Assembly: GCA_002118135.1 (NCBI GenBank)
Contig: BDIU01000088.1
Location: forward strand, 124,001-188,000
Direction of reading: 5' to 3'
From: Trebouxia sp. TZW2008
Lineage: Eukaryota; Chlorophyta; Trebouxiophyceae; Trebouxiales; Trebouxiaceae
Length of the DNA: 64,000 nt
Shown: positions 7,636-63,698 of the stretch, one piece after another
Numbering within the stretch: position 1 is the stretch's first letter
Layout of the letters: the number at the start of each line of letters is the position of its first letter
Made by a program: the position numbers and the translations under genes
Notes under the pieces: generated by a model
What the model saw: the letters and a program-made list of their open reading frames with translations, nothing else
Told to the model about the DNA's origin: nothing
Databases searched by the model: none

Positions 7636-10600
7636 TTACTGATCGGCAGCTTGCACGGCTTGCACTCGAGCCTTTAGTGCCTCTCGCTTGTCTCTTACTG
7701 CTTTGGCTTCAGCAAGCACCTGCGAACCAGTCGAACAATGCGGGAAGCCCAAGCCATTGTCTGCTCTCAAACAACAACATGCAGCAGTGGCGCTTCATGC
7801 TTGAAAGCAGTTGCTCATGCATTGTCATCATGTTTGACTCCATACAATGAAACGCTGTACACACTGTACATGTAGAATGTCCTTGATCTAGTATGGTGTT
7901 GGAGTTTCTTGCAAGCGCATGGCATATGTAGTCGGAATGCATGCATATACAGTCTGTACTCACCGCTTTACCACCATCAGGTTGCTGCTGCTTCCACTGA
8001 GGGTCATCAAGCAAGCTGGCATACTCTATCATTGTCTTCTTCATCTGTTTGATTTGCAACGTCAGCTGCTGCACTTGCCTGCCTGCTGCTCCGCTGCTCA
8101 GCTGAGCCTTTGCAACACCACCACTTTGAGCTGGGGACATGGATGGTGCCCTATGTCCCTGCCGCTGATGGGAATGCAAACTGTTAGATGCCAATTGCAC
8201 TGGCAGAGGGTGTTGGGTGATACTCTGCAGATTCTGTGCAGATTGCTGGTGCATGGCAGCACCGGTGCCGGACTGAGCCTGTGCAGGCTGCCTATGTGAG
8301 ACAGTGCTACTGTTCAGCTGATCCTGGCCAGGCTGCTTGTACACAGTAACACTGGTGTCCAGCTGATCCTGCACAGGCTGCCTGTGCATGCCAGAACTGG
8401 TACTGTGCAGATCCTGGGCATGCTGCCTGTGCATGGCAGCACCACTGCTCAGCTGATTATGAGCAGGCTGCCTGTGCATGGCAGCAGTGCTGCCACACAT
8501 GATGTCCAGCTGATCCTGTGCAGGGTGCCTGTGCATGCCAGAACTGGTACTGTGTAGATCCTGTACAGGCTGCCTGTGCATTCCGGAACCGTTACTGTGC
8601 AGATTTTGTGCACGTTGCCTGTGCATGGCAGCAGTAGTACTTTGCAGATCCTGCGCATGCTGCCTATGTGAGGAAGCACTAGTACCCAACTGATCCTGTC
8701 TGCTGAGCGATGGCTGTTCTGCCACAGGCACAACTGCCTGAGCTTGCAACCCTATGGGTTCTTGGTGGGATACAGATGATGCTGAGCTAGCGGAAACAGC
8801 CTTTGTTCCATTGGACAGACTGGATGCAGGATGCAGAAGCCCAGCAGGACACTGTTCTTGCCCAACTGCAGCCCAAGAACCTGCAACTGTACAAACTTTT
8901 ATGTGAAATTCTGCTGATTACGTTGCAGACGCGAAGTATGGCAAGCCACTTGTGGCGGTGCGGGGGAGCTGACATCACAACTATTGTGCGGCCCGACAAT
9001 CCAGGTTTGCCATATGCTGTTGCAGGATGCTGCGTATGGTAAAGCATACTTTAAAATTCAAAATTTCAAAGGACCATGCAGCAGCAAAATCGCGACAAGT
9101 GAACAACAGCGTTTGCATGGCATGCTGATTTTGGGCAGCACCTGTGGGCTGAAGCTGAGCAAGCTCTTGACGCAAGGCCGCCATTCTCTGATGCAGTTTG
9201 GCTCCTCCATCAGGGAGGCTTGCCGAGCTAGATGAGCTGATGATTCTCTTCAAGCTGGAAATATCCTTCTGCAGTCTCTCCAGCCTGCACTTGCAAGGTG
9301 AATTTGTCAAACCACAGCCACCAGATGTATCTTGGAATGGTCAAGCTGAAGTCGTACTGTTGCAGTCGTTCAATCTGTGCCTGGAAGGTGCACTTGCCAA
9401 ACCACTGTCATCACATGCATCTTGTTCGAGCTGGAGGCGTTCTGTTGTGGTCCCTGAAGCTTTTGCAGCATGCACTTGTGAAACAGTTGCCACCAGATGC
9501 ACTTTGGGATGGTCTAGCGGAAGCCTGGTCTGACTCTGACTGTGGATGGACACTGTTGCAATGCAGCCCAGTCACGATGCTCTGCACTTGCATGAGATTG
9601 CAAGCTTTGCAGAGATGCTGCAAACTTTACATGGCTGAAGCTGCAGCATTCAGTGCCAACTGGTTGCGAGCCCACTAACAAGCTAGCAAGGGACAGCTGA
9701 CACGTTCTGCAGAGAGTGCAAGCAGTCTTGCAGGCAATGAAAATTGTGTCAACCTGCGAGCAGCTGGTGGTACAACTGATGACGCAGCAGCAGTAGTTTG
9801 TGTGCCAACCCTGACTCCCACAAGCTGGTTGTAAAGCAGCTCAAGACGTTCATTGACAGAGCAAAAGCATTGTTGCAGGCAATGACAATTGTGCCAACCT
9901 GCTAGCAGCCGGTGGGGCAGCTGTCGAAGAAGCAGCAGTGGCTTGCGTGCCAGGCCTGACAAATGGGCCTTGAGAGTTGGTCGCTGCCTTGGGTGGTCCG
10001 GGGCCTCCCAGATGAAGTGTGTTGGCCAGCATGTCACTAATGTCGCTTGACCCTGACCAGCCTGCGCAATGAGACCTGCTTGTCTTTTGTGCTGCGGTCT
10101 GACAGGTGGCTGTCATAGGATGACAAAGAGCAAGCACATAGAGACAAAGAGAGAGCAGATAGTGCTGAGCTTGGCAGTAAGTCAGCACACTCTTTGTTCA
10201 ATTCTCCCAAAAAGCATATAACTTGACAACAGGCAACAGTTACAAGCAGGGTGCAGCAATCACCGACAGGCGTGTATTGACACTAGTGCCTTGTGCTGCC
10301 AGACAAGAGGATGGGATGAATGGCAGGCAATTGTGACAAAAAGCATTCAGGGTTGGGACTGGCCTGATGCTGGTGCCTTGCGCTGCCTAGCGGCTGCACT
10401 AGAGGGTGGCAGGGCAGCATGTCTGCTGTCTATGGGCTCAGGCCAGCTCTCCTTTCTGTCCATGCCGCTGTCCTCGGCCTTTTTGCTGAACATCAGGTCA
10501 TGATCACTCACACCTGAGCAGACATGCCATCACGTGCAATCCTTTTGTGACACATTTGATATTGTGTGCTGCCTAGCAGCTGTAGTGGAGGGTGGCAGGG

Positions 10601-13600
10601 CGGCCTGCCTGCTGTACACAGCTCAAATCAGCCCTCCTTTCTATGCATTCCATTGTCCTTGAAATTCTTGCTGAACATCAGGTCATGGACATTGAAACCT
10701 GAGCAACAGGCTAGCAATTGCATTTCTCTTGAGACATTGCTGATGCAGTTGGAGGTGGCAAGGAAGCCTTTTGGCTGTCCACAGGCTCAGGCCAGCTCTC
10801 CTTTCTGTGAGTTTTGCTGTCCCCAGCCTTCTTGCTGAACATCAGGTCATGGTCACTGACACCTATTCATGCATGTCATCAGTTTTATTTCTCCTGTGAT
10901 ATATCCGTCGCAGCACAAGCAAACGAGCAAGCCATTCTGTCTCAACAAGTATCAATTGCTTGCAAAGTTGCTGAGAGACAGCAGTACAGCGGCCATGTTT
11001 GTTGTAATGCACAGCTGCTCACTGTGCCTCCATGCCCTGCTATCATTCCAAGGCCACTGGAATGTTGGTGAGGAAGCAACAATCCATGATGATGTGCGTC
11101 ATCAGTCAAAAGGCATGCAGCGCAGAGCGACCCAAAGCAAGCTGCTTACCTGCATATCGCGGCAGAGTCTGCAAGAAGTCCAAGTGGTCTCTGACATAGT
11201 TTGTGGCTTTGCGCTGATCAGCATGAAGCGTATCAAGCGTCTGTTGGGTCTCAGACTTTTCCAGCTCGCTGGGAACCACCCTGAACAGATCCCTCAAATC
11301 CTGTGCCACAAGAGCTTGTGGGAACAAAGTCCATACAATGACAGATTGTAACTTTGCCCAGATTGCACTTCTTCTGTGCAATGAAGCGCATGTCAACACT
11401 ACAATCAGGTGTTTGTTTTGGAAAGCATATGATTCATGACTTCTGGGAAGACTTTTTTGAGGCTTTTTGTAGGCTACATTTTCAATCTAGTCTAGCTCCT
11501 TCAGCAGAGATCACATATGCCCGGCCTTTGTACGGAATATAGATGTGCACAGCGCCATGCTGATGACTGTATGTGCTGCAAACTTGCTTGTGCCTGTGGG
11601 TGCTTCAAGTGAGTCACTGTCAGGCAGTCAGATTAGTGGTATGCATGCTGAATTAGAGAAGACCTGGGACAAACTCCCTAGCACTTGAGTCAGAACGCAT
11701 AACAACCTTTTATTGTCAGCACTGAGCATGTCAAGGGTTCCTGTTGGGCAGGAGACTTAGATGCAATGGGACATTGGTCACCTGTTGGGAGATGTAGCGG
11801 AAAGCAACACCCTCCTCAGTGCCACTCCCAGACAAGCATCCTTTGAGGCGTGCTTCCAAGTTTGAGGCACAAGCAACAGCTCATTTGGATGCAGCTCACC
11901 TGTTGGGAGAAGTAGCGGAAGGCCACACCCTCCTCAGTCCCGCTTCTAGACAAGCCTCCCTTGAAAACCTGCTTCTTGTAGATCTTCTCCTCAACAGTAC
12001 CACAGGTGATGAGCCTGTACACCACCACGTCTTGGCGCTGCCCTATGCGGTAGGCTCTGTCAACGCTCTGGTTGTCCACAGAAGGATTCCATGCTGGGTC
12101 CACTATGATGACTCTGTCTGCAGCTGTCAGGGTTAGGCCCAAGCCACCCACTTGAGATGTCAAAAGGAACACAGGGATATCATCTCTGGTCTGGAACTCT
12201 TGCACCAGCGCCTGCGAACAAATAAAGACTGCTGTTGTCAATGCTCTGATTGCCCTCCAAAGTAAGCAGAATCCACAATCATGACCCTGTCTGCAGCCTT
12301 TAAGGCCGCAAGCAACAATGTATGAACTGCTTCTGCAATGGCATCTGCAGATTGATAGCTGATGTCCTGCTGATGTACGCGTTGAACATGCTGCATTGTG
12401 CTATTCAATGGTCTACAGTTGCATAAATGCCAATTGTGTGTATGACCTGTCTGTCTGTCGCGCTTGAGATGCTGCCATCGATGCGACAGTAGGCGTAGCT
12501 CTGCTCACTGATGGCTGCTTGCAAGATGTCCAGCATGACTCTGGACTGGCTGAAGATAAGAGTCCTATGGCCCTTTGCCACCAGCTCTGCCAGCAGCCCC
12601 ATGATGAACTCTGTCTTGCAGGATGTGCCCACTCCTGCAGCATTCTTTTGTTGTTTTGCACAGGAAAGCGACATTCTCTGGAAATGCACCAACAGAATTC
12701 TGTAGAGATGCAAGACGTCCAGCATGACTCTGGACTGGCTGCAGATGTGAGCCTTGTGACCCTTTGCTATTAGCTCAGCTAGCAGCCCCATAATGAACTC
12801 TGTCTTGCAGGGTGTGCCCACTCCTGCAGCACTCTCTTTGCTCATTGCAATTGCAGCGTGTTCAGGAAATGCATTAACAGAATTGTTCAGTGGTACACAG
12901 GCACACGCTGCCCTAGCTGGCCTGAGTTGCGTGAGTGACGACTCAAATGAGCATTTGCTTGTGCCCATTGGGCAAACAGCAGGAGGCGCAGTCCTGCAGA
13001 AGTCCCCAGGCCATGTCTCTTGTCATGTCTCTTAGTTTAATCAGGTTAAGCATAGCAAAGTCAAAGCCGGTCCCAGCATAGGCAGGCTGACATTGACAGG
13101 CACACAGCACAGGCATGCAACAGGACAAATGCTGAGTTCATGATCTGCCTCTGCATGCCATTCTGTGAGCCGTTGGGTGTCGCTAACAGGTTTCTTTGTT
13201 GCCGCATTTGCACATGGGGCTGAGGTGCAATGCAGACAGCAGGTCTTGAGTGACCCTTGACAATCTCAGTACGGCCTTGCTGCTAGCTGCGTACAACAAT
13301 CTTGATTGATTTTTTGACTGATCTAATGTTTGATCACTCAACTGATTGGTGCATTGACGGATGCGTTGACCGATTGGTGGGCACATTGATCAATTGATTT
13401 CTTAATTGTGTGCTTGTTTGATGCATGACATTACCGTTTCCATGAATGTCCTTCAGCAAGTGTGCCTCGACATCAGCAGCGTCAACATTGCCTTGTTCCC
13501 ACCAGCTGCCACCTGAGGGCGCTGCTTCTTCTTTCACCTCCTCACTGGCATCAAACCATTCTTCTTCCTCTTCATCAGACCCGTTGCTATCAGCCTTCAC

Positions 13601-19093: not shown

Positions 19094-19124
<31 letters not shown>

Positions 19125-20207: not shown

Positions 20208-23200
20208 ATGGAATTTGAGGATTTTGGAGCTAGATTTTCTGTAGCAGTTGAAGATTTCTCGGAATCCTGGCCCTTGCTGCAGGAGGTAAGTCGCTGTCGC
20301 ACCAGTCTGTATCAGCGATCGTTAGCGACAAAGCATGTCGCGTGTCTGCCGTTCCTATGTGCGAAATCTGTGCTAAATCTGCTTCATCAGAAATCACGCA
20401 TCACTCTGATAAGCAAGCGCCCTTTCTCCGCTTTCGCGCGGCAGGTCGACGCGTGCTGCGTGATTGATCCTGCTTCGCTGATGCGTAACATTGCTGCTCT
20501 GCAGACCTTGCAGGGCAGGGGCCCACTGCGACACGTAACCCTAAGGACTAAAGTTGGCAATCCCGTGCCAATCACAGAGCTGCCCGTTCAGTGAGCACAT
20601 AGGAGTTTACTCTTTGCTGTGTCTGGTTGTCAACAACCCTAATCACACCCCTAATGCAGGTTCCTTCTGTCAACAGACAGCAAATTGCAGAATATCAAGC
20701 CATTTCAAAGCAGCCCTGTCACGTGGTTCCGGAACCCTTATGCAAGGCTCATTCTGGTATGCATAGGCATTTTCAATAATTGACCTGAACGGCTACAATC
20801 TGCTGTCAAAACACTGACATATGGGATAGCATAGTGGGCTGAGTCAGTTGGACAGCTGATTTGTTCTTGTTGTTGTGTCAGGTCTCTGGTGAAGATGCAG
20901 ATGATTACAAGAAGTCATTGCGGGGGCAGCTAAAAGCGTTGATTGAGCGCGAAAAAGACCCTTTGGGACCCACCGAGTGGGTAGTGTGCTATATCAAGCC
21001 AGCAGCGTCAGATCCACTATCAAAAGGTCCTCGGAAGGTCAGCAGCCAGTCACTTTGGACACCAAAAGCGCCTACATGTTGGGCGTTACTTGCCTGTTTG
21101 GTGCAGGCCTAGCCAGCCCTCTGCATCTGTGCAGACAATACGCAAACAGCAAGTCACAGCAACATCACCATGTCAGTCAATTCACTCCTGTGCCACATCC
21201 TGCACATCTGCCAAAATTTCAGCAGCATCAGCAAGCCATTTGCCTGTGCTACTGTTCAAAGCCTTGCAATTGCACATACAACATTGTGGATGCTTCCTTG
21301 CATGTGGCGCCATCATTTCATACAGGCCTTCAAATCAGAGCCACACACACACACACAGCACTTGTGCCAGCACATGTAACAGTCATCGCCGTTACCTCGT
21401 ACAGGTCTTTGATGCCCTTCGCCACGACTTCAACACACGGCGGCGTGAGAGGTGTGTGCGGCTGGACTTCCCTGTGCAGCAAGGGCAGGGCTCCATTGCA
21501 GGCCTTGAGGAGCTGGAGCAACTGCTCAAGGCAGCCGTCAAGGCCAGCTTTGAGACTAGGGCAGCTGCATATGAAGAAGAGGTGTGCACTGTCTGCCACG
21601 ACTCTGCAATTGGAACATGCAATGGCTATGAGTGTGGCTAGGACTACCTCAAGGCCAGCTGCTGTCTCAATAATGCTGCAAGTACAGAACGCAATGACTG
21701 CACACATGGCCAGGACGGCTTTGCAGTGGTTCATGGGGTGAATGAATATCAGCAATGCATCATGCAGGTGTGCTGCAAATGATTGAGATTGCATTACATC
21801 CAGCCAGCTGAACAGCTCTGCGGGCTGTTCAAGAAGTCAGATGCTGCCCTGATCAGCCAATGCCAATTTGATGCCCGTCTGAAGCTGAGACGGGTGCAGG
21901 TGCACAAGCTGATGGCACAGAGGCTGTCACAAGTCATGTAGTAATTACCCAGTTCTTTTTGGAGAAATCTAAATATTGATCATCAATCCAAATATGACAC
22001 TTGTGATTTATATAGTGATGCTGAGGCGCCAGCTCAGAACAGCGCATTTCACAGCTCAGAAGGGGACAGATCCAGTCAGAGATTACATATCACTCCTGTG
22101 AACTTTGGTACTATAGCTGAGAGGGGTGCAGGTGCGCAAGCTGATGGCACGGCGGCTGGAGCCTGGCTGGAACTTCAGCACCTTCTACCTGATCAAGGAC
22201 AGCCTGGCCATCATGATGGAGGCTGCCGGCCTGCTGGAGGACGCCTTCAGGGAGTACTTTGAGCTTGAGGCCTGCTACCTGGAGGCACTCAAGCAGGGCG
22301 GCAACATGGCAGGCAGGCAGTTTGGTGAGCAACCACTGCTTTGCTCTGTAACAAACCTGCAAGTCTGCAACTTGCGTCATTCTTCATATCCAGGTAGCAA
22401 TTGCTGTATGTCTGTTTGCTTTTGATTTCTTGCCCTGTCCTGGCCGGTGATAAGCCAGACAGGTGATTTTGTAAGAATTTGCTGTTCTCTTCTGCATCAA
22501 CATGACAGGGGAGCTTGGAGAGTTGGTGGTGAAGCCTCAGAGCAGTCCAGTCTTGTGTAAGCCTGTATTGCAGCTTTGCATGGAGATGTTGGAGGTGCAG
22601 CTTGTACACTAAAGCTGCGTGGCACAGTATTGCAAATTTGCAAGTCTGATGTCCGCCTCTTCAAGCATGTCAGCTAGTACAAATTAACACACATGTTGCC
22701 CATTGCATGTGTCACAGCATACGTGAGCGCAAGGCCTACGTGCTGGCATCCTCAACAAAAAATAGTCTGTGACTAGGTCTGTTTATATGGCAGGCGGCAA
22801 GACGGATGGAGATGATGTGGCTCAGATACTGAAGGCTGCTTGGCGTGAGACAAGGGGCAGTGTCATGCGCGGCAATGGGGTAGCAGAGTTTTATTTCAGG
22901 CAATACCTGTTTGCCTGTCAGGCGCGCTTGCTCTTCAAGCTCAACAGGCCAACTGAGGTACGTTCTGATCTATCACCTGCAATTGGCTGCTTCAGTTTGA
23001 TGCAGTTCATGCAGTACCTTGACGCTGCATGCTGTCCATCTTCTGTCTGTGGGATAGATTCATAGCTTCAAGAACAGCAGGTTGAGAGTGCAACCAGCCT
23101 CAGCACTGACATCAATTGCCTTTGGAGACTCTTGTCTACTCAAGAGCTCTGCTGGTTTTGTATGCAGCCCGCTTGAGTGGCATGTCTTCGTATGCGTCCA

Positions 23201-26200
23201 GGCTGTATTACAAACTTGTGCACATCACGCAATACCCTTGTGCAACCGACCTGGTTGCCATTTGAATTAGCAGAATCGTTGTGCAGGTGGCAGAACGCGG
23301 GCTGCAGTTTGTGCACACCTTTGCACAGCTGCTGGGGGAGCAGCAGGGCGCTGCTAGCCTGCCAGGGCTGTTCCGGGAGGCCTGGGCCTTCTCAGCCTGC
23401 ATTTCCCTGGCCACCACCACCTCCCGCCTCATGGCTGCCCCAGCTGTGGCCACCAAGAAGCCTGACCAGCCATCATCAGCTGTCAGCCAGCCCTACAGGT
23501 CAGCTACAGTGACTTCTCTTTGTAAGGACACTCGATGTAAGGACACTCCCGATGCAAGGACAATGCAATTGGTAATCAATCACTGCAGTGGCACCTCTGA
23601 GTCAGGACAGTTCAATGTCAGGACAATTTTCTTGGGAACCAAAGCAGTTGTTACAAAGAGAAGTCACTGCACCGGGTTGTCAGTTGCTAGCTGCCTGCCT
23701 GCCAGGCTGTCAATTGCTAGCTGCTTGCCTGCTGGCGGCACGTGTGTGTGATCTGTCCCTGCAATCGCTCCAACCCTCATGGCTGCCCCAGCTGTGGCCA
23801 CCAAGAAGCCTCACCAACCACCCTCAGCTGTCGGCCAGCCCTACCGGTCAGCTTGTGGTTGACGTAGGTGTTAGCACATGTTGTTGTTGTACTCACTTAC
23901 CATCTTGTGCACTCATGAGATATGCACCTGTGCAGGCGGTCTATCTCAGTAAACGAAGATGAGGGTGCAGAGCGCAGCAGGGGACTAAACCGATCACAGA
24001 GCGCCGGTGACCTGACTCAGGTGACAGCAAGCAGTGTAATCAGCACCCATGCATCTGTCCGTGCGCTCTGCCACCCTCTAGCTTGTCTGCAATGCACATG
24101 CGCATGCCAAATTTGATGCTGCACAAGAACAAGCTATGCCCCGCAGCAGCAGCTTTACCCAGATGCTTGCGCGCTGGAGCTGCAGATTCTGAGTTGTCAA
24201 TCATACTTCACAGAGTTATGCAATCGTACGGGACTGCCTTGGCGCCTTTGACTGCATTTAGGCATGTGATGGCTGCTGCAGAATCAGTCAGGCAGGTCAG
24301 ATGCTGACAGCAGTATTCCACACCGCAGCACTGCTGATCAAGCTCAGTTGGATGCGCCAGCGCTCAAGCCCCTCAAGATCAACAAGAACAACTTTGCTGG
24401 CCTTGAAGCACGAGGTCAGCATTTGTTCAATGCTATAATAGACCTCGTCACAACTTGTAAAGCTATTGCTGCACACATGTTTGGCTCAGTCAGACAGATC
24501 ACTTCACTTCTGTTTCCTCTGAACTGTTCACCATCATGTCCCTGCTTGCATGCGTGAACGCCTCATCAATGGCATCTTGATCTCAGGCTATCTTGTCCTT
24601 TTTCTTGTTTGGCCAGGTCTCATCTGCAGCACAAACAGCCAACTTCCAATCTTCCTCAATGAGCGCTGCAGGGCCGACTGCCATATCAGTGCTCCTATCA
24701 CTGCTGCACAGAACCTGTTATCTGGTCCACGACAGCTTGTGTTTTGCATGCAATCACGACCTGTGCCTGAGTTTCTACTGATGTCAAAATTGAGGCATAC
24801 CTATGTTGCCAAACTTGTGTGCAGGGTTGATAGCCCAGTTGACCCTTCCCAAGGACCGGCAGCAAGGGGCTCTGGGGGGAGAGGGCCCCGCCCCTGCCAT
24901 GCACATGGAGGTTGATTGGGATTTGGGCGTCTCTGGCCACTCTGATGATCTGCCTGATGAGGAAGAGGTCTGCTGCAGTGCCGCTTTGCTTTCATCAAGA
25001 GCATACACAAACTTGTCATGCTTGATTGCCCTCTTTGTTGCCCTTTACATGCTTGGTGGCACCTTCTGTCAGCACATTTGCAGAGTTAAGCTTCTATCTG
25101 CTGTCCAACGGCAAGCATCATTTACTTAACTCCATCACATTCAGCACGCAGGTTGCCTGTTAAGTTGTTGCAATGACAATCACCTGCAGGAGGTGGTGCC
25201 TTGGAGCCGCCCAGGAGCCATTGCCGACCTGCCATCCCCACCAGGCCTACTGGTGCCAAGCAGCAACTGCTGCTATTGTCATGATCACCGCTGTCATCAC
25301 AATCACCCAGATACCGATTGGTCTGGCATTGGTGTGCAGGAGGTGGTGCCTTGGAGCAGAACGCCCAGCAGCCATCGGCGGCCTGCCATACCTCATCAGG
25401 CCTACTGGTGCCTGCTGGGTCACCTGTACGCCGCTGCCCGTTTGGAGCTCATGCGCATGGGCCATGCCCTGCACCTCAGCCACCTCACCCCGCCAGGTCC
25501 TGCCCATGGCAATGTGAGCTTCTTGCTGCCCCACTTAAGTGCCTTGCCCCTGAGGCCTGGGGTACAGTCATGTTGATGTATAGCAACTGCACTGCTGACT
25601 CAAAAGTTGTGCTTAGCCTGATCTGTTCTTACATGGAAGCACCAACTCAGTTTGTTTGCTGGTTACTGATTGCATTGTCCTCAAAAGAGAAAGATTTTGT
25701 ACCGAGGATGCTGATCTCACGAATTTATTGGGCCTCACTCTGCGTGGTTTCAATTCCTGAGCGGCTGAAGCAGGCTCAGCTCAAAGAGAGGCCATTGGCG
25801 CTATGCTTGTGATCTCAGCTGACACCAGGTACTGACAATTTGCAGCTGCAGCCCCATTCAAGTATGAGTCAAGACCGTATGGCTTCATCACTTGTGCTCA
25901 GCTACAAGCGCTGGGGCAGTGTGCTTTGCAAATCATCATGTAACGCTTTGAAATTGTAGGCAGTGCCATCAGTCAACCTCAGCACATTCAGTCAAACCCA
26001 GCTCTCCACTGCCTATCCCCTTATGGCCATCGATTGTTTGACAAATAGTCATGACTGTAGGGAGCATCACCTAGAGCAGCCCGCCTGTCAAGCCATTCTG
26101 CCACTCCTGTGCACAGCCCAATGCCCCCTTCACCCTTCACCGTCTCCAGCTCTGCACCTGCCTCAGTCACGCCAGCCAAGCCGTTAGAGCAACAGTCAAG

Positions 26201-29200
26201 CCAGCAGCCCGCTCAGCAGAATGGGTTGCAGCTCATGCAGGTGATCTGAAAACATGATGCCTGTGCATGCAAACATGGAATCACCTTGGGCAGGGCATGC
26301 AGTGATGTCAATCGCCAAAAAGATGGTGCATGCACATGTGACCAGAGCATTGCCTTGTTTTGGACAGTTTTGTCAGTCAGCGGTGTAGATGCGTGCAGTC
26401 ATTGAAACTTCTGTGACGATTGTTGCGACGATTGTCTCCTGGCTGCAACTTTCTGACCCACGGTGCATCCCCACAAGACATGCTAGCAAGATACTGCAAC
26501 ATATAGCACTGTGCCAACAATGCTGAGACAATTTGCATGCATAGTTCTGACTTCTCCAGGCAGACAGCTATCCCTCAGAGACTGGCATTGCTGTCTTTGC
26601 ACGCAACTGACTGCTCCTGTACGTACCTAGCAGGGTCACAGAATGTCACTGGCTACATAATATGTAAATGATGATGACATATAAATGACGACGATGATGT
26701 CGTTGGTAATGTCTTTGTAGGAGCCAGCTCCTAGCACAGACTTAGGAACAGCTTCCAGCCTGAATGCTGCAGTCTCAGCTGCCAGCAGCCGCCGCCCACA
26801 GCTGCACACTTCTTCCTCCAAGAAGCTCAGCAGGTTTGCAGAAGAGTCACAACGTCAGCAGGGCCCAGGAGGTGGGGTAGAGGGTGGGCTACCCCCCCTG
26901 GCGCCCCCTACTCCCGTGACTGTCAGGGGGGACTCTGTGACGAGCCAGGTCAGCACTGGACCTGGCAGCTCACCAGCCAAAACCACAACTGATGAAGGTG
27001 CATTTGCTCACTGACTTACAGTCACTCAACAAGAAAGAGTAGTGCTTGCTCACCGGCATTCACAGGGTTGAGACAATGCTTCATAGAAGCGTTCAGCGCA
27101 TATGTGATTCAGGCTTCATGGCTCTTTGCACTGTACATAGTCGAAAGACATGTTGCAGGCTGCGAGCATGACTGCTGGCAAGTTTCTGCATGTGCGCCTG
27201 TGCCTGGCATCAGCAGACTCTGGAGTCGGCCTTGTCAGTGTTACGCTTTTGCATCAACCAACTCAGCTGTTGTTGACACCGATGCATACTCAATTGGGTC
27301 ATCAAATACGATGCCTTATGATGAGCACGCACAGTCCAGCACTAGCATTTGGTACAAATACAAGGCAAGGTCCTCCTGGACTTAGACGCCCCTGACTGTG
27401 AACATGCTCAGCAGACAATGACACGTCTCTGGCCTGCACAATGTGTGTATTGATGGCTATCTGTGGATTGTCTGTTATGCCTTGAACTTGCTGTCGCAAT
27501 CACATTTCGTGATGTGCAGGGGATGAAACAAGTAGCAATGATGGCTCCCTGCACCGCAGTGAGATTGACTACTCCACGCTAGCTAGAGCAGAGGCTGCAG
27601 CACAGCAGCAGGAGACCAGTGATGCAGCAGCTGGCAGGCTCCAGAGAACTGGAGCCCTGCCTTCCACCAGCAGTGATGCAGGCCACCTAGGGCTTCAGGT
27701 AGGCACGCCCGCTTTCAGTGCAAGAGATAAACAGGCAGACGAATAGGCAGACAAAAACATAAATCGCGCCCTGTAAGGTATCTGTTGGAAAGTCCCAGGA
27801 AGCCAACATCACACGGGGTTGCTGTGCTTAACTTGCTCTGTACTTACACTTGGTGTACAAGCCTGGGAAACATTCTTTGGCGACTAGCAGTGATGCAGGC
27901 CACTTGGGGGCTGCAGATAGACAGCCAGAAACTCCTCCATTGATGCCACACGATTAATTTACAGGCAACGCATGTGTGAGAATGTGCCACGTGAAACAAT
28001 GTGGGGTGTTTTGCCATTAGTGCTTCATGGTGATGCAGGTTGGAGAACAGCAGGCTCCAGCAGATGCAAGCGCCTTGTTATCAGCACAGCAGGTGCCTGC
28101 TGCCCAGACGGCTTCAAATGCATGGCCTTCTGGTGAGAAATCATACATGGCCTCATGCGTCGTGTTCAAGGTGGAATCATTGGGGCAGCGTACAAGCACG
28201 CAGGCAGCACTGCTCCTGTATGCACCTAGCAGAATTATGAGACCTTATTGACAAGCATGTAAATGCTGAACATGATGCCACATTAGCACAGCCCCTTGTG
28301 CATGTTGTGTCTGACCAATGGCAGCAATAGATGCATGCATTCCCCGGGGCTCACTGCCTGCAAGTGCTTTTTACCTTTCAAATCTCAGTAAGGATCAAAT
28401 GTACAGTGTGGAGCGAATTGCTGAGCCTTGCGAGCATTTGAAAGCATTCAGGCCGTACTTGCATTTAGGAAAACAATTTGTTAAGGCTGTCACTATCTGT
28501 TCAGGCCAGCTTTGAATTCTGCATTCCATGCTGCAGGCGCTTGCATATCTAGATTGATGAAAGTCCACTAACATCAGTATTTATTTCGCTTGATACACAT
28601 ACCTCTAGGATTTGAGGCAGTCCTCTGAATAAAAGCCACGTGTTTTGTTAGATCCTTTGACCTATTTGCAGGCAATGCTCTGCATAATGCAAGCAGCTCA
28701 ATCCTCAGCCGACTGTCAGACCGGCACCTCAAGCTGGCTCTAGGCTCTTGGCAGCGATGTCAGGAGCTGTGGTTGCAGCCGAGCTGCAGAACTTTGCTCT
28801 CAACGCCCAGACATCTTATTTGAGTGAAGTTGCTTGCTTCAGTTACAGTCGCAATACATTTACACTTGCACAATCTCTGCAAAATGGACCAATGACAGCA
28901 AGCCATCCAGTGCAGGTGATGCTGCAAACAGCTCTGTACCCAGCTGGCTGTCAGACTGGTGCGTCCAGCTAACTCTAGGCTCCTGGCAGCTGTCCCAGGA
29001 GCTGTGGATGCTGAGCATGCTCCAATGCTTCAACACCTGATTTACACAATGCATCCCGCTTTCAAGTAAAAAGCGTCAAATACTGTCCATGTGCAGGCAA
29101 TGCGCTGGATGCTGCAAGCAATGCAGTACCTAGCTGGTTGTCTGACTGGCGCCTCAAGCTAGCCCTAGGCTCCTGGCAGCTGTACCAGGAGCTGTGGATG

Positions 29201-44700: not shown

Positions 44701-45749
44701 TTGCTGACTGTTGGCATTGGACGGCTTCTGTCGCCATGAGGAGTTGAGGTGCCCAAGTATAAAGCATTGATCTTTTGTGCATTTACATACCTCAAGCTCC
44801 ATGCTAGATACAGACCTGGTCGTGACATACAATGCCCAGTGTCATCTGCTCCAAGTGGGCTTTCTCTTCACTCACCTAGATGGCTTCCATGCAAGCAACT
44901 CTTGACTGGTAATGTCTGTCTACGCAGCTTTGTGGTGTATGGTGGTGATGCGCTCATATCACACTGCATATGGTCAGCCGGGTACGGCATGACCCAGCCT
45001 GTGCAGTCCTACTTCAAGCCCCATGTGCAGATGTTTGACCTTGGCCGCTGGGAGAGGCGACCCATGATGGACATGATCATTGACGCCACAGAAGGGGACT
45101 GCAATGAGCTGTGCCAAGCCCAGGTTAGCCTTGCAAGACTCGAGAAGCTGCAACCTCATGTCTTGCAATGTGGGCTTTGCTGCTATGATGCTACGTACTA
45201 TTTACTGTTTTGACTTGGGGCACTGGGATAGATGATTCATGATGGACATGATCGTCGATGCTATGGAAGGGGACTGCAATGAGCTGTGCCAAGCCCAGGT
45301 GAACTTACAGCCTGTTCAGGGGTGTGTCTGAAACTTCCAATGCAGGCTCTGCTCCTGTTGCACTGCACTGGGCACCAGCACGTGTGTGATGGCCATGCTG
45401 ACTGCAAAGCATATGCGTGTATATTGCCTTCTGCCTGCAGCACGCAGGCACCACGGCCTATGCCATGTCTTGCAATGTGCAGTCAGGTGTGCTGCATGTC
45501 AGCGTCCTGTCTTTCAGCTGCTGCTGGCAGAGCAGTGAGGATGTCAGCGTCTTATAAAGTAGCATTTGCCATGCTGTGCAGGCTAGGTGGCAGGTCTCTA
45601 AGCATATACGCTCGCGCTACTTCAACAACTTAGACGCAACAGAAGCTTACATCAAAGGGCTGTCCCACCTTCATGACACATACCTGATACGTGTGGGGCA
45701 CCCACTCTGTGCTGAGACAAAGCAACCACCTTGTGGGCTGTACAGCTAG
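41757..45749 (+). CDS. Fringe-like (GT31-type) glycosyltransferase, secretory pathway
   Basis: This is a type II or secreted sugar transferase expected in the Golgi lumen. Exons: 41757-41987, ~42161-42354, 42719-42876, 43278-43379, 44200-44476, 44928-45123 and 45582-45749, giving about 441 residues. It opens with MRRSCLGIVICLSLISYG, a hydrophobic signal anchor or signal peptide. The metal-binding DxD motif is KWLLYGDDDTMWF. Downstream, GWRNGMLIEGAPRCLPCN, a Cys-rich segment (VGCPCTKELLCDKD) and SIDGGSGAILSRGLM match the Fringe-type acceptor side, followed by VVYGGDALISHCIWSAGYG. The donor sugar and acceptor are unknown. The weak point is exon 2: bases 42138-42170 read well in one frame (VLIIADKRKHI) then stop, while the following conserved text is in another frame. 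I used the acceptor just before 42161 to keep the frame open; a sequencing indel is possible. Confidence 0.85.
45213..45300 (+). pseudogene. Ghost copy of Fringe-like gene exon 6 end
   Basis: This repeats the 3' end of the exon 44928-45123 with its donor, offset about 177 bp. MDMIVDAMEGDCNELCQAQ here compares with MDMIIDATEGDCNELCQAQ in the exon. An in-frame TGA upstream (45232 region) and the lack of an acceptor make it a relic. Confidence 0.85.
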
Positions 45750-50503: not shown

Positions 50504-53500
50504 ATGCACGCTGGGCCGTCAGCATCGCTTGAACTGCAGGTAAAGCCGCGCTGCCTTCAAGGTCATGAGCGGCCAAGCAATCGTGCTGGAGCCGGGAGTG
50601 AGACAGGCAGCTTTGATAGCTTTCAGGACAGTTTGCTGCGATTAGGCAGGTAATGAATGGTGTGAAACACATGCAGATGTACAGGCTGTATGTGAATCAA
50701 TGGGGCTCCAGTGCGCTAGTCTTCACGAGCGCAGTTCCTACAGGACTGCCGGATGGGAAGTAGGACATGTGCCTCTGCTAGGCCTGACAGCAGCCTTCGA
50801 GCTTTCGTTAGGACGGGTGCTTCAGCCTGTGTCTGAGGTACGTATGATCTGCTGCGTGCTTTTGACAAATGGTCTGTAAGTATACACCTGTCAACAGGTC
50901 TCATCACACGCTAATTTTTCTCAGTCGTGATGTGCACAGGGTTCAGACAAGGCAGCACCAAATACCTTCAGAGTGTCATCACAGAAGTATTTGGCTCTGA
51001 AAGGCTGGCATGTCTCCATGCACATCAGCTGTCAGCAGCACAGACCTCAGACCTAGCCAATCTGCTAGCCTGACGGGTGCCTGGAGCAGCCTGTTCAGCA
51101 GCTCTTCTGACCCTCAAGTGTCTTGGCAGAAGCCCTTGTCCCCTGCTACTGTGAACATCCTCAATGCCAATGCATCAGCAGCAGCAACAGCAACAGCAGT
51201 GCACCAGTCAGCAGCCTTTGCAGCTCTGTTTGATGACATGGTCAGCTCTCAATCAGGCGAATACTTCCTTGCACACAATTCCACTCTGCTGCAGCTGTCT
51301 GGACAGAGTTCACCAGCCAGCTTGTGTGATTCAGCAACAAGCTTCAGCTTCAAGACGCCCAGGCATGAGAGAACAGACCCTCTTGTAGCTCGTCAGAATC
51401 CTGAAGCACAGCCAGGCATTGATCATGCAGCTCAGATTCCTGGTCCCTTGATGGATTCTCTCCTCACTGCATCTGGCCAGCAGGATCTGGCAGCTACTTT
51501 GAAGCACTGGCAAAGCGGCAAACATGCTCCCACACAGCCTCAGGATGGCCAAGCATCTGCGCATCAGCAACAGTTACAGCTTGTCAAGCAGTCTACACAG
51601 TTTGCACTGCCTCAACATAAACAAGGGACTGTCTTTTGGGGTCAGCCTGTTGCAGCCAGTCCCAATTTGCATCAACATGCGGCAGTTGCGGCAAAGTCAG
51701 ATCTGATTAGGTACTCAGCTGGTGGCAATAACCTTGGCTGCAAATCCATCTCAGGAACCAAGCAGCAGTCGAGCGATGATCAGCAACCAGGCGTGAAGGT
51801 CAGAAGGCACTCAAGAGTCAGAAAGCATGAAGCCCATCAAGGTACGTCAGTGTTTCAACTATGGCTTTGTGACAAGTATTGCCCACCGTTAACAGACACA
51901 CCTCAGGCACGCTGTGATTTGACACACCCTTGTCTCACTACGCAAGGGCTCTACTCAGAGTTTAGACTTAAGATTGTGAGCGCGTTGCAAAAGTGGAACT
52001 TCGTGACAATCAGCTACAGTACAGACAGTCTGTATGCACCTATGTTGGATCTCTGGTAAAGTGTGAATAGTGTCCTGTGGGCCCCCCATTGCGTCTCTGA
52101 GAGGACGTCAATTGTAAACTGTGAAAATGTAAACTGATTGCATCAACTTCGCTGTCCATGTAATAGTTTACTCATGTTGTCCTGGGTGTCATTGCGCACA
52201 GTCAGCGCATACTTTGCACCCTTCATGTTGCAGCATATCAAAGGGGGGTTGTCAGCAGGTGGCAAACATGTCAAGCCTTGGAGGGCAGCAAAGCTCATAG
52301 GTCCGCAAGCAGCCGAAGTTGGGGTTGACCGTTATGCTGGCTCCGCAAGAGCATCCCAGGAGATGCAGATGCAGCTGAACAAGGTTGCATGGTGGCTGGA
52401 GCTGCATGCCTCTTCAACCTTCAGCCCAGCAAGCACAGCTCACAAAACTGCAAGTGTTGAAGCTTCACTCCCTCAAGCTGCGTCAACAGGGATGCAAGCT
52501 GCTGTCAAGATGCCAGTCACAGCTGCTGATTCTGCTGCTGCTGCTGCTGCTGCGAGCAAAAGCACATTCCCTGCAGCCGTGCCTGCGTCTGCAAGCAATG
52601 CAGCTCAGCCAAAGTTGCAAGACTACCCAGTAGTCGTGTGTGCAGCACCAGAGCATGCATTGTCAACAGCTGTACCTCAGCGCAAGCCTGGTCACAGCGA
52701 ACCACATGCCAAGGATTGTGCAGCCCTTGAGCAGCATTTGAAGCCACAGCAGCAAGGCCTGAAGCAGGACAAAGGGCGTACCACTGCAGCTATGCTGTTG
52801 CCCAGTCAGTCTGCATCTGCGTCCACTGAGCTGTTTCTCAAGCTTGAGGCTGCTGTTGCACATAATCCAGAGGCAAGCCATGTCAGCCAGCCAGCGCTCA
52901 GCACTGCAGCTGTCTTATCCTCAACTCATGCTGATAGTGCCACACGCAAGGCCCAAGCAATAGTTGCGCCCTCAGACCCTCAATCTTGCAGCATAACAGG
53001 GCCTGCTGCTCAGCTGTCAACAGCTGCACAAAGTGCAAGAGGAAATCAACCTGATGCTGCTGGTACAACATATAGTCACAGTCAAATGCAGCAGCAGAAC
53101 CCAGAGGATGATCAATATGCTGGACTGGAGCGTGGTAGCAACACAGGCTCAGCAGGCTTGCTGAGCACACCTCTGTCACTGCTGCCAGACGGCTTGCATC
53201 CTGCTCTGCAAAGCAGATGCAGCCCAACTGAGCCCTTCCACACTGATGCAAGCTCACAGACCATACCAACAGCACAAGGGGCTGTGGATGCAGTCACTGA
53301 AAGGGCCAGGGCTAAAGGGGTAGCGCCCAGTGCAAAGCTTGCAGACGCTCCATTGGTCAAGCAAGGCAGCTATGCTTTGGGGTTGAAGCAGGCTGAGGAT
53401 ACACTTAGTGCAAAGGCGACAGGGGCAGTACCCAGTGCGAAGGCTGCAGAGGCTACATTGGTCAAGCAAGGCAGCTATGCTGTGGCAGTGGGACAGCCTG

Positions 53501-56500
53501 AGGCACAATTTAATGCAAAGGCAAAGGTAACAGCAGCAGTACCCCATGCAAAGGCTGCAGAGGCGCCATTGGTGAAGCAGGGCAGCTATGCTGTGGCATT
53601 GAGGCAGGCTCAGGAACCAGTCACCGAAAGGGCAAAGGCTGAAGGGGCAGTATCCATTGCAAAGGCTGCAGAGGCGCCGTTGGTGAAGCAGGGCAGTTAT
53701 GCAGTGGCAGTGAGGCAAGCCAGGTGGCGGGGGGAACGCCGTCAGAGGGAGATGGAAGCGCTGCGGGCTCAGGATGCTCAGCAGCGCGCAGCCAGCATGA
53801 AGCACTCTTCCCAGGTAAGCTGGGAATTGGCAAGTCTGTTTGAAGCTGATTTCGCTGTTTGCATACTTACAAGACATGCTTCTGATGGATCACTCTGCAG
53901 TTTTGAGGCTGGGTACTGCCTTGCTGTCAACAGCTTTTGTGCTCAGACAGCAACAAGCAACTTGCAAAACTGCATAAAGCTCAAAGAACAACAGTGGCAT
54001 CTTTGCTGCCATCAGCTGACCAGTCAATACTGATTGTACATGCCTCATATACCTGCACCGTGACGATGCATGCCTTGCGCTGGTGCAACACTTGCTCAAT
54101 TTACATTATTGCACCCGACCCCTGTGCTACATATTGTATGACTTATGCAAACATTGCATTGCTGTAGGGCGAGAAATCAAAGGGCAGAACAGCAACTCAA
54201 AGAGGCCTACTGATTGGCTCTTACAGCCACCCTCCCTCTTTTCTGCCACCCATCACCCCCCAGGGCTCCCCCCCTCACATTGATAGCACCCCCAGCCAGG
54301 CCAGGCAGCCTCACACACCACTAGTCTCAAGACCATCAACAGTGGTGTCAGCCAACTATAGATATGCCTCAACACTCGCCACAGAAGCCAGCTCAACATG
54401 CAGTGAGCCTGAGCCATTGACAGCCTGCCAGTCTGTAAGCAGTGGCATAGAAACTGTAGAGCAGGAGTTGAGCAGTCAAAAGGCAGGAATGTCAAAGCGA
54501 GAGGCAGATGTACCGTCTGCTGTGGGCAATGAGGAGGCTGGAAAGGCAAAAGGGAGCAGCCGAACGTCAGGCCTTCTGAAGCAACAGGCAGCCTCTGAGT
54601 CTGGAAGGGCAAGCTCAGGCCTGCAAGCCCAGCTGCGCCTGCAGCATCCCTTCACGCCCCTGACAGCAGCAGTGCAGCAAGACCTCCCTGCCAAACCCCT
54701 CAGGGGTCTCAGCAGGGGTCCCCAAAGCAGTCCACCCTGTGTGCAACAGCCACAGCTACAGCAGCAGCAACAGCAGCAGTCACGGCAGCTAGCACTGCAG
54801 CAGCAGAAGCAACTGCAGGCACAGTCTGTTGAAGAATGTCAGCTGCTCGCATCTCTGCAGAGACTTGATGTTCAGCTGGGCGTTGCGCACCCTCAGACTG
54901 GCTCACCCCAACATGCAGCGCACCCCAGCATTCTGTCTGAGCAAGAGGGCGAAGCCAACTGCTCTAACACCACCCAGGATGCACCACTTAAGGAGCCCAC
55001 AAGCTCAAGACAAGCTTCAGTGCGTGCTGCTAAGCACAGACCGCGCATGCGGAAGCAGCCAAGCGCCCTTGAACAGCCAAAGCCAGTACTGAAAGAGCCC
55101 TCAGTGCAAAGTGCATCAGGCAGCATTGCGTCAGTCAGACGTAATGCTGTGCCTATTAGAAGGGGAGCTTGGCCTCCACCGCCACATCCAGAGCAGGGCA
55201 GGGGCTCAAAGGCAGAAAGCAGGCCAAGGACAGAGGGCAGAACAGAGGGCACTTGCCCTTCTGCCTTGCCCTCACAGCAGGGCAGCAGCAGCAGGGCAGA
55301 TGGCAGTGCCAGGGGCGTTTGCTCTTCAGCTGTGCCTTCACAACAGGGCAGTACCCCTCAGGCAGGCAGCAGGAGACAGACGGGCAAGGCCAAGATGAAG
55401 AAGCATGGCCCAGGGTCCACAGCTGCAGGACCAGGGGTGCTTGACAGCGGGAAGGATGTCAGCAGTTCAGCAGAGGAGCGCTTGCTGCAAAGCTCTCTAG
55501 CAAGGCTGGATGCTCGTCTGTCTAGTTTGGCTGCCAGATGCACAGGCAAGTCTCTGCATGCTTCTGACAACTGGCGTGATGAACGCTGACATGATGATAG
55601 CTGGCACTTCTGTATTCGCATTTCATTAAGGTGCAGGCAAAGGCGTTTTGCCTTGAGCATGCAGCGGATGCTTGTCTCCCGCGTGTCAGCTTGACGTAGG
55701 TGCTTAGTGTACAGAAGCGCTATCTTGTCTGGCTGCCAGATGCACAGTCGAGCCTTCATGTGCTGCTGACAACTGGAATTGTCACGGCTGACGAGTCTGC
55801 AGTCACACTGCACAAATGGGCAAGCATCATTTTGGTCGCTCCAAGCAAAGACAGCCTGCAAAAAAATGAGCATCTTGAAGGTCCCTTTCAAGCAAAGGCG
55901 CGTCACTTTGAGCATGCATTGAATGCGTTGAATTCAGGACGCTTTTTGCTGCAGCTCAGCTTGAAATAGGTGTGCAACGTTTAGAGGCACTGTCTAAAGT
56001 GGCTGCCAGATGTACAGTCAAGCCAGCAAAGGCTGCTTGCACCAGCCCAACGGCATTGGTCAATGCTGTAGTTGCTTGCACTGCCACGAGCATGCAAGTC
56101 CATGCTGGATCAAGATGGAGACAGTTGATTGCTTCTGTACGTACCTAGATCGGCCTGCTGAGAGCCTGCCTAGCCCACGTTCACAATGAATCAATGAATG
56201 AAGATGTTTCAGAATTCTGTGCAGTTGACTATGAATGCGCTGGTGAACACAACCTGTTGATTGCATTGCTCCTGAAGAGAGGTCCATGGCAAACAGAAGC
56301 CTCGTGTATATGATGTCCGTCTCTAGTGAGCAGAACGAAGTGTCTGGTTCTGACCAATTTACTCGCATAGTCTTTCTGTATGAAGGCTCACAAGGGCGAC
56401 CCCCCGCAGCCCCTGCATTAGCCCCACTGACCAGGCAGCCTTCCTCCTTTCTGCCCCCAACCTCCCCTTCCAGCACACCCCATGGCTGCCTTCCGCCCTT

Positions 56501-58197
56501 CCCATCAGGAGCAAACAGAGGGGCTGAAGCTGCCCATCGAAGGCTGCCTGGGTCTTCAAATGGCAAAGTGCGGCCCAGTCCATCTGGAAGCCCACTGCAA
56601 CTGCCGAGGCTGCAGGCGTGCCCATCTGTGGCTTCAGCGCCTTGTACCTCTGGCCTGACACCCTCTAGAAGGCACTCAGGTGGGCATGCATGCAATTCTG
56701 TCATCGACATGATTGCTGTTCTTTACTGTGGCTGTTCCTCTTCTGCTGACACGTCTATAGGCGTGCCCATCTGTGGTTTCAGCGTCTTGCATATCTGGGT
56801 CGGCAGCCACTCAAAAGCATCCAGGTGAGCATAAATAGGAATACATTCATTTCTGCGTATGATTGCACTTCTGCTTAGTCCCTTGGCATCCTCATCCTCA
56901 TCCTCATCTGCTTGTTGACCATCTTTGGTGTCTTTTTGTGTTGTTTCTCTCCTTCTTGCGCAACAGGCTTGTTCACTAGTCTTGTGCTTGTGAGCAATCG
57001 ACACAAAGCATGATGAAAGTCTTGCTTGAGATGTCGTAATCATTGTGCTTGACAACACATCTTGGTTTGATCTCACAAGTGCAAGCTGATTGGGCAAGGT
57101 GCTAGCTGGGGTACCAATTGTATAACGTCAATCAGCTGAGTATGTTGTAAAACATGAGTGCAGGGCTTTCAGGCAAATCTGGAGCTGCAGCCAGGGCAGC
57201 TGTGCTAGCAAGGGGCCCCAGCGTTGCACAAGGCTTGACCAGGCAGACCCCTCCCCTCCACTGTGGGGAGCGACTCCATTTGCTGCCTGAAGGCCTGCCA
57301 AGTTTTGCTAGCACCTCAAGTGCTTCTGCCATGCAACCAGGCTGGCAGATGGAGGCGCTGCAGTCAAATGGCATGACGCACTTCTTGCCGTCAGTCCCTT
57401 CCTATTGGCAGCAGCAGCAACAATGGCAGCAGCAGCAGCAGCAGCATCTACATTCGTATGGCAGGAGGGACGGCCTTGTTCAGCAGCAGTGCATGCAGCC
57501 TATGCCGGCAAGCCTGCATCCTTTGTGTAGCAACCCTCAGCAGTCATGGGGCCCTGGTGCCCTTGCTGCCCCTAGCTTTGAGCAGTCAAACGCTTGTGCT
57601 GCTCAGCAGCAAAACAGTCGCTGCCAGACATCAGCAGGACCTCCAACATGGGAGCCAAACCAGCACGCACCCTTGGTCATGCCGCATCAGGCAGCAATGC
57701 ACCAGGTGCATATGCAAGCAGGCCTGGCAGCTTACCCAGCAGCTGCCTCAGCAGTGACTTCGGCAGTCAATGCAGCAGGGTCGCCTTGGGTGCAGCATGC
57801 TTGGTACCCTACCATGCCTGCAGGGCTTCAGCTACCCGTAGGCAACCCCTATTTGCATGCTGAGCCTAGTCAATCAAGACCTCAAGCATCAGCAGCAAAT
57901 CTGCCGCAGTCCAAGGACCAGCATGTGAGTGATGGGCATGCTGAGCATGTGTCCATCAAATCAGTGCTTCAGGGTCTGGAAAGAGATGATCAGCAAGCTT
58001 GCAGTGCTGTTTCAGGCACAGAAGCTTCACAGCATCAGTCACCTCAAATGCAGACGGCACATAGGCAGCAACCTGCTGCTGCAACACCAACTGTTGATGG
58101 CTCTGCCAGTGCTTACCCTCGCTTGCGCAATATGTCAAAAGGTCCACCACAGAGGGGTGTAATCAAGGCGTACAATCTTGAAGCTTTGATCGGTTGA
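50504..58197 (+). CDS. Large low-complexity coiled-coil protein, function unknown
   Basis: I do not recognise this family. Exons with matching phases: ~50504-50649 (start uncertain), 51036-51841, 52259-53814, 54168-55545, 56386-56679 and 57164-58197, giving roughly 1730 residues. It is rich in Ala, Ser, Gln and Pro. Visible features are a conserved-looking start of exon 3 (GGKHVKPWRAAKLIGPQAA), four repeats of KAAEAPLVKQGSYAVA spaced 105-111 bp (53338-53720), a highly charged helix RWRGERRQREMEALRAQDAQQRAAS, two related short helices ECQLLASLQRLDVQLG and EERLLQSSLARLDARLSSL, polyQ runs near 54760 and 57410-57446, and a basic C-terminus. The exon ending at 55545 is followed by GCAAGT, a GC-type donor; reading through instead would stop at 55589. 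A scaffold or cytoskeletal role is possible but not shown. Every listed exon stays open and phases agree, which supports one gene rather than three. Confidence 0.7.
53338..53725 (+). repeat. Four in-frame repeats, (K/A)LVKQGSYA(V/L) units
   Basis: Copies of TTGGT(C/G)AAGCA(A/G)GGCAG start at 53353, 53458, 53569 and 53680, spacing 105, 111 and 111 bp. Each encodes A-(D/E)-A-(P/T)-LVKQGSYA followed by a Gln/Ala-rich spacer. The units are inside one exon and translated. Confidence 0.95.
55628..56035 (+). repeat. Two ghost copies of the LSSLAARCT exon end
   Basis: The exon end 'ttggctgccagatgcaca' (to 55545) recurs near 55731 ('ctggctgccagatgcaca') and near 56000 ('gtggctgccagatgtaca'). Both are flanked by further shared bases such as 'aggcgttttgccttgagcatgca' and 'caaggcgcgtcactttgagcatgca' (given approximately). 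Neither copy has an open frame joined to the gene. Confidence 0.75.
56757..56826 (+). pseudogene. Ghost copy of the exon end at 56679
   Basis: The text 'aggcgtgcccatctgtgg(t/c)ttcagcg' is shared with 56606-56630, and a donor (caggtgagc) is retained, offset about 153 bp. The reading of the copy diverges after ten codons. Confidence 0.75.
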
Positions 58198-62976: not shown

Positions 62977-63698
62977 CTGTGCTAGATGAAGCCAATGAGG
63001 CTTGGCTTGCGTTCTTGGCATGACCGCTGCTTGCATCCTGCTCCTCGTTTGCATCTATTGCCTGCAAGACACGTGACATGTCAATGCTCAGCCAAGCTGC
63101 ATTTGGCAAAGTAACAATCTACAGAATAATCAGTGATAGTCCCTGCAACAACTGGATTACCAGGCATATCACTTCATGACATGCTGCAAGCAATGCTCAG
63201 GTCACATCAACTACTTGAATTTGCAAAGAGAAAGTTTCATTGCAGCAGAGCGCACTCCAATCATGCTCTGGCTCACCCATCTTCAGCTTATGTACAGGCA
63301 CATACAGACTAACAGCAAATGTGTTGAGATGCTTGCATGCTGGCTGGGCACTGTGCTCAGCCTCCACGCTGTAGCCATGGCAGCACTGCTCAGACATTCT
63401 GTGCTTATGTATGTCATGACAGCAATGCTCAATAACATGCAGAGGCATACTATAGACTTACAGCAAATGTGTTGAGATGCTTGCGAGCTTGCTGAGCATC
63501 AGGGGCAGCCTCCAGGCTGTAGTCATAGCCACGACGGGTAGACTGTGTGGACAAAATGCTTTCAGTGCGGCCCAGATCCCTGAGGGGAGCCCTCCTTGCA
63601 CCCCCTGGCCAAGCTGAGCTGGGCTGAGGGGCTGTTACATCTTCAGACAGGGCATAGTTGGGCCTGTTGTTCCTGCGCTCTTCCTCCTCTTCAGCAGC
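62977..63698 (-). CDS. Unknown gene, internal exons only (runs off right edge)
   Basis: Two exons look real on the minus strand: 63698-63462 (79 residues, beginning AAEEEEERRNNRPNYALSED, with PLRDLGRTESILSTQSTRRG and KHLNTFA) and 63061-62977 (AIDANEEQDASSGHAKNAS). Both have tgcag acceptors and gtaag/gtaca donors. The text is charged and Ser/Ala-rich, with an acidic-basic helix at the start. I do not recognise the family. The 5' end should lie beyond 64000, and the 3' end is not located. A partial ghost of the first exon sits between them at 63302-63380. Confidence 0.5.
63302..63380 (-). pseudogene. Ghost copy of the exon ending KHLNTFA
   Basis: It shares 'cagcaaatgtgttgagatgc' and 'cagcctcca-gctgtag-cat' with the donor end of the exon at 63698-63462, offset about 148 bp. 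The copy carries a stop and lacks an acceptor. Confidence 0.7.

Follow-up and report, generated by a model that had tools for sequence, protein, structure and literature searches.

The exon fragments that recur in the introns of this Trebouxia genome probably record a history of short in-place tandem duplications, with units of up to about 230 bp, that were placed regardless of splice junctions. Where genes are compact and introns short, most duplicated units would cover an exon edge. Duplicating such an edge would do no harm: the copy of the splice site that stays attached to the remainder of the exon still functions, and the other copy turns into intron. This intronic copy, here called a ghost, would then decay neutrally, staying recognisable because its partner exon is held constant, and each event would lengthen the intron by about one unit. 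Units lying wholly within an exon would tend to persist only if the reading frame was kept and, rarely, an exonic unit carrying AG|GT would give rise to a new intron.

The analysis covered 254 kb, comprising the window (the whole stretch of 64,000 nucleotides presented here) and 19 stretches of 10 kb from the same genome, which amounts to 68.5 Mb in 527 contigs; its size and GC content agree with those published for Trebouxia 'A48' (69.1 Mb and 49.7% GC; PMC12712428). One of the 20 stretches fetched (L006, C17:50001-60000, on a 65-kb contig) was left out for its GC content of 40.5%, against about 50% elsewhere, and may be organellar or foreign. Gene structures were predicted ab initio with a self-trained hidden Markov gene model, and two genes were compared with homologous proteins. 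A first self-trained model, which over-split the genes (median exon 29 bp), was dropped; its replacement learned splice sites only from introns flanked by exons of at least 60 bp and converged on the donor CAG|GTRAGY and the acceptor TGCAG|G, with median exon and intron lengths of 157 and 340 bp. Pfam matches back the SNF2 gene (PF00176, PF00271), the TRAPPC10 gene (PF23036), an EF-hand gene and others, and weakly the Fringe-like gene (PF02434, E 3.6e-05). The best named matches of the SNF2 protein were in Trebouxia sp. C0004 (80% identity), C0006 (80%) and A1-2 (77%). The last exons modelled for the Fringe-like gene were wrong, as the proteins P0001 and P0007 put its next exon near 45570. The model also joined the EF-hand gene (17322-19399, + strand) to the downstream TRAPPC10 gene, and the exon that follows the EF-hand gene holds a glutamine-rich stretch.

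An earlier note on this window had described tandem copies of exon edges, and these copies are real. When the window was aligned with itself at E<=0.01, repeats separated by less than 1 kb formed 41 same-strand pairs and no inverted pair; at E<=1e-4 it held 20 local direct-repeat arrays (Table 1). Fifteen of them combine an exon with a copy in the adjacent intron and two sit at the edge of a gene or have a part beyond the predicted genes; the other three are purely exonic, and the description as exon edges does not extend to them. The best pairs of these arrays are only 69-93% identical, so that they are not assembly duplicates.

Table 1. Direct-repeat arrays of the window and candidate gained introns of the sample (positions in the window unless a stretch is named; spacings in bp).
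Feature	Position	Strand	Spacing and remarks
SNF2 gene, purely exonic in-frame repeat, no exon-edge duplication	8218..8698	-	unit 45, best pair 135; in P0025
SNF2 gene, ghost 9720-9815 of exon edge 9865-9960	9720..9960	-	145; ghost without counterpart in P0025
SNF2 gene, exon 10364-10513 and two intron ghosts	10379..10881	-	offsets 186, 349; neither in P0025
SNF2 gene, ghost of 3' edge of exon 11900-12211	11778..11964	-	118; not in P0025
SNF2 gene, exon 12447-12635 and ghost 12709-12884	12520..12884	-	189
TRAPPC10 gene, predicted 232-bp intron 21900-22131 with copied flanks	21883..22158	+	232; candidate gained intron
TRAPPC10 gene, exon 3' edge and ghost	23427..23853	+	348, about twice 174
TRAPPC10 gene, exon edge pair	25185..25412	+	150; model takes both copies for exons
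TRAPPC10 gene, exon segment in three copies	28664..29216	+	successively 235, 190
TRAPPC10 gene, exon 3' edge and copies in next intron	29214..29552	+	period 131
TRAPPC10 gene, purely exonic repeat	32723..32854	+	69
TRAPPC10 gene, donor-side exon edge pair	32872..33168	+	168
TRAPPC10 gene, donor-side exon edge, 2.3 copies	33651..33992	+	period 148, 90% identity
TRAPPC10 gene, short exon/intron pair	34112..34329	+	188; 30 bp
TRAPPC10 gene, exon edge and several intron copies	35622..36251	+	period 163
Fringe-like gene, exon 3' edge 45034-45125 and ghost 45209-45300	45034..45300	+	175; in-frame stop in ghost
Coiled-coil/disordered gene, purely exonic repeat	53280..53724	+	105 (35 codons)
Repeat pair at gene edge	55518..55776	.	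202
Repeat pair, doubtful predicted exon/outside predicted genes	56614..56832	.	145
Right-edge gene, exon edge and ghost	63290..63529	-	147
Candidate gained intron, stretch L004	4880..5102		
Candidate gained intron, stretch L018	4945..5114		
Candidate gained intron, stretch L015	6756..7051		
Candidate gained intron, stretch L010	7063..7539		

The genome-wide recurrence that the same note had anticipated was borne out across the 254 kb, where 230 direct pairs were separated by less than 1 kb, against none in order-3 Markov copies made from those sequences. Only one direct pair was separated by 1-1.5 kb and none was farther apart within any locus, while inverted pairs numbered 12 within 50 bp, one at 400-500 bp and seven beyond 5 kb (one in the Markov control). 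The direct pairs group into 114 arrays, of which the window, with 20 (0.31 per kb), is poorer than the other stretches, with 94 (0.49 per kb), at an overall density of 0.45 arrays per kb (bootstrap 0.35-0.55), and 24 of the 26 units of up to 10 kb contained at least one. If the sample is representative, the genome would hold about 24,000-38,000 arrays by extrapolation. Detected duplications covered at least 20 bp in 103 of 309 introns, which have a median length of 400 bp versus 329 bp in the rest.

The duplications are also bounded in size. Spacings in the window ran from 69 to 232 bp, with one further case of 348 bp, and in the whole sample 104 of the 114 arrays had spacings of 63-232 bp; the other ten ranged from 292 to 990 bp and none fell at 240-290 bp. 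After correction for detectability, the rate climbed up to a spacing of 170-190 bp (32.3) and dropped beyond it, to 14.7 at 190-210 bp, 7.2 at 210-240 bp and 1.4 at 290-360 bp, where some may be double units. The lower edge of the size range is unreliable, since the detector missed every simulated unit of 30 or 45 bp, and an alignment-free count of 11-mers found repeats at 20-60 bp too. The spacing was divisible by three in 24 of the 81 exon-involving arrays that are not confined to one exon and in six of the nine same-exon arrays.

An excess of junction-spanning duplicates over random placement, whose absence the earlier note had named as refuting its reading, was seen in the larger sample. 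Counting an array as junction-spanning when an exon-intron junction lies inside a matched copy, and taking the expectation from rotated annotation, we found 64 such arrays among 104, versus 43.5 expected (sd 4.6), whereas in the window alone the excess was not significant (11 of 20 versus 7.6, P 0.086). In the same rotation test, intron-intron arrays (7 versus 18.1) and intergenic arrays (4 versus 20.2) fell below expectation, and exon-exon arrays numbered 9 versus 7.1. Altogether, the shares of exon-involving, intron and intergenic arrays were 0.89, 0.07 and 0.04 (93, 7 and 4 of 104). Neutral decay at present intron lengths was rejected as the whole explanation of these figures: at the best-fitting age (K 0.13), simulated identities, codon pattern and edge positions agreed with those observed, but the exon-involving share reached only 0.49-0.53, and the median ratio of match length to spacing was 0.65-0.68 in place of the 0.79 observed in the arrays, some of whose flanks show no visible homology. 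More indels or older ages raised the share to 0.8 and above, but mostly misfitted exon/ghost identity or match length, with few detections. With non-coding DNA reduced to 25% of its present length (K 0.13), the simulated shares became 0.89, 0.06 and 0.06, compared with 0.75, 0.17 and 0.08 at 40% and 0.61, 0.24 and 0.15 at 60%. Random placement in a compact ancestor is therefore consistent with the observed shares under this model, and together with neutral decay it would make a preference for splice junctions as such unnecessary. Such an ancestor is a fitted quantity and would mean that a large part of the non-coding DNA arose after the duplications.

The alternative that deserves the most weight is that duplications arose, or were retained, preferentially at exons or splice junctions, for example through exon-seated nucleosomes or breaks in transcribed DNA. 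The rotation test and the gap between the observed exon-involving share and that simulated with present intron lengths speak for such a bias, as does the distribution of the junction excess, which peaks among the most alike pairs (20 of 27 at an identity of at least 85%, versus 10.4 expected) and is weak below 75% (14 of 20 versus 11.4), a trend not expected if only the visibility of old copies were at work. Moreover, 11-mer repeats at 140-180 bp were rarest in intergenic pairs (26.9 per million, versus 99.2 for intron-intron, 115.1 for exon-intron and 208.4 for exon-exon pairs), and per position pair the exon-exon repeats remained commoner at 140-220 bp and the intergenic ones rarer. On the other hand, intron-intron repeats were about as frequent per position pair as exon-intron repeats at 100-220 bp, spacing and exon length were uncorrelated (Spearman -0.07, n 80), and the compact ancestor yields the observed shares with no bias. 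We consider a bias unlikely, and grant it some weight because the excess in pairs of high identity points towards it.

The ghosts look neutral in their differences across codon positions, in how often the splice dinucleotide is kept, in their stops and in their spacing. Differences between exon and ghost amounted to 0.152, 0.116 and 0.221 at codon positions 1, 2 and 3, with an intron/intron identity of 0.80, and the neutral simulation at K 0.13 gave 0.146, 0.114 and 0.223. A Jukes-Cantor correction puts the neutral share at about 0.116 per copy, which leaves 0.05, 0.01 and 0.15 for the exon; this remainder is the pattern expected of a coding exon, and a coding ghost would push the value at position 2 much lower. 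Columns in which both copies were called exon resemble the exon/ghost values (0.143, 0.123 and 0.230), which suggests that many of the second copies are probably ghosts too. In-frame stops occurred in 12 of 66 ghosts. The splice dinucleotide was retained in 76 of the 98 ghost rows not called as junctions, compared with an expectation of 0.787 under one-sided neutral decay and a measured value of 0.66 for intron-intron dinucleotides. Acceptors (AG, 45 of 52) outlasted donors (GT, 31 of 46) with P 0.03 over array rows that are not independent; this difference speaks against strictly neutral ghosts, and decoy donors may be selected against. In some ghosts the match stops at the splice site and no homology is visible past it, although the share of sharp edges was within the simulated range. 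Ghosts with little intron homology also had a codon pattern (0.157, 0.104 and 0.215) similar to that of the rest (0.153, 0.125 and 0.221), and conserved ghosts or gene conversion, considered for the matches that end at splice sites, were not needed.

Transcript-derived products were compared with the gene structures as well. The 919-aa product P0025, whose longest contig measures 4130 bp, has its coding parts spread over window positions 14930-7639, a span of 7.3 kb with 11 introns, and is thus the product of a spliced RNA. It reproduces the SNF2 gene exons exactly, save for stretch ends running into introns, and lacks the ghosts of all four SNF2 exon-edge arrays (those starting at 9720, 10379, 11778 and 12520). 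These include the ghost 12709-12884, part of which (12761-12823) was called an exon by the ab initio model; P0025 uses only the copy at 12441-12635. In P0001 (420 aa, contig 2151 bp), which comes from a relative, the Fringe-gene exon edge likewise occurs just once, although the genome of that relative may lack the ghost. Both P0025 and P0001 represent main products, and rare inclusion of ghosts is possible. The transcript comparison covered the SNF2 and Fringe-like genes, as the TRAPPC10 protein search returned three proteins at low coverage.

It is much less probable that selection keeps the ghosts, whether as alternative exons, as poison exons or as decoy splice sites with a regulatory role. 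The high retention of acceptor dinucleotides, the ghosts that stop at a splice site and the ghost partly taken for an exon by the gene finder could be read in this way, but the codon-position differences fit a neutral ghost, in-frame stops are present, the combined dinucleotide retention is neutral, spacing modulo three is flat and P0025 omits the ghosts of the four SNF2 arrays. For these reasons, the suggestion that the copies create alternative exons was not supported; neither codon constraint across the sample nor mRNA use in the one gene compared marks them as cassette or mutually exclusive exons.

We also found it hardly credible that exon pieces were carried by mobile elements or introner-like insertions. 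Introners are known to create introns in a minority of eukaryotes, according to the excerpts of PMC9860276, but the copies described here are nearby and on the same strand rather than dispersed, with a single direct pair beyond 1 kb within loci. When the best copy of each array was searched against the 254 kb, 110 of the 114 had no match elsewhere and four did, and a whole-genome search with the TRAPPC10 ghost array at 33651-33992 returned one place only, itself. The sites L008:4344-4513 and L012:6585-6677 stood apart, the unit of one array giving 64 matches outside its own surroundings, in another locus; this unit is a low-complexity or dispersed repeat, unlike the other arrays. An assembly artefact can practically be discounted, since, even though the assembly method is unknown and the contigs number 527, the best pairs differ by 7-31%, the differences are codon-structured and arrays occur in nearly all sampled units.

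The duplications of in-place origin appear to be mostly old. Across the 114 arrays, the best pair per array was 69-93.3% identical, and only five single pairs reached at least 95%, namely four in L012:629-1098 and a 25-bp pair in L021. As a steady process should give many young copies and few were seen, the bulk of the duplications looks old, and the idea of an ongoing process found no support, although assembly collapse of near-identical copies could conceal some young duplications. The array L012:629-1098, the only one with pairs of 95-100% identity over 30-87 bp, is possibly a recent expansion.

An effect beyond the earlier note is the apparent gain of introns. The donor and acceptor flanks were mutual copies in register (score of at least 12) in five of 302 introns, versus none of 3041 control pairs, and such copies are described as a signature of intron gain by tandem genomic duplication in the portions of PMC3443670 and PMC4974935 available to us. 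In two cases the intron length equals the duplication spacing (232 bp in the window, 223 bp in L004), and the three best candidates (170, 223 and 232 bp) are within the size range of the duplications. Judged by their sequences, these five introns look like candidates made by the same duplication process. In terms of scale, five candidates in 254 kb of one genome compare with the 188 unambiguous events in seven taxa given in the 2012 review, as excerpted (PMC3443670).

This kind of process is already known. Internal gene duplication (Gao and Lynch, 2009, as cited in sections of PMC3443670 and PMC4974935) is likewise local and intragenic and can include exons, introns and junctions; in the present case, many units are part-exon, the copies are 69-93% alike, relics persist in introns and there is a ceiling near 230 bp. 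Short tandem duplications also arise at breaks with 3' overhangs, and the duplications from repair of staggered ends in the consulted passages of PMC8355091 (with Vaughn and Bennetzen, 2014, cited there) are similarly short, local, head-to-tail and free of mobile elements. By analogy, the copies in Trebouxia would have originated at breaks whose long staggered ends were filled in and joined, as in the break-repair route through Pol alpha-primase/CST fill-in; such an origin was demonstrated in mouse cells and is inferred for rice. The overhangs induced in the work of PMC8355091 went down to 43 bp, whereas the breakpoints in our arrays are too old for microhomology to be read. Among the matches listed by searches of open PubMed Central papers, we found no description of such duplications in Trebouxia, and in the searchable text of the 'A48' genome paper (PMC12712428) the word 'tandem' was absent and 'intron' occurred once.

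These results suggest that random local duplication is a route for the growth and occasional origin of introns, and its relics are so frequent that one small genome would suffice to date and count them. In a bolder version, which we hold tentatively and regard as doubtful, a process with a hard ceiling near one nucleosome repeat (about 200-230 bp) would have rebuilt the non-coding parts of genes, lengthening a large share of the introns from roughly 100 bp in the ancestor, creating perhaps a thousand new ones (extrapolating from five candidates in 254 kb) and leaving behind exon relics that could be dated, in the tens of thousands. A size ceiling that held throughout the genome would limit which repair or replication intermediate can produce short tandem duplications. 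Besides, gene finders may take a ghost for an exon, as happened once here, which calls for care in annotation.

In addition to the duplications, the window contains an intronless 344-aa reading frame at 60196-61227 (+ strand) that had no Pfam match. Its residues 45-205 resemble a phage family labelled DNA polymerase (phrog_24943, E 2.6e-20), and this similarity suggests that the frame is possibly of viral or bacterial origin.
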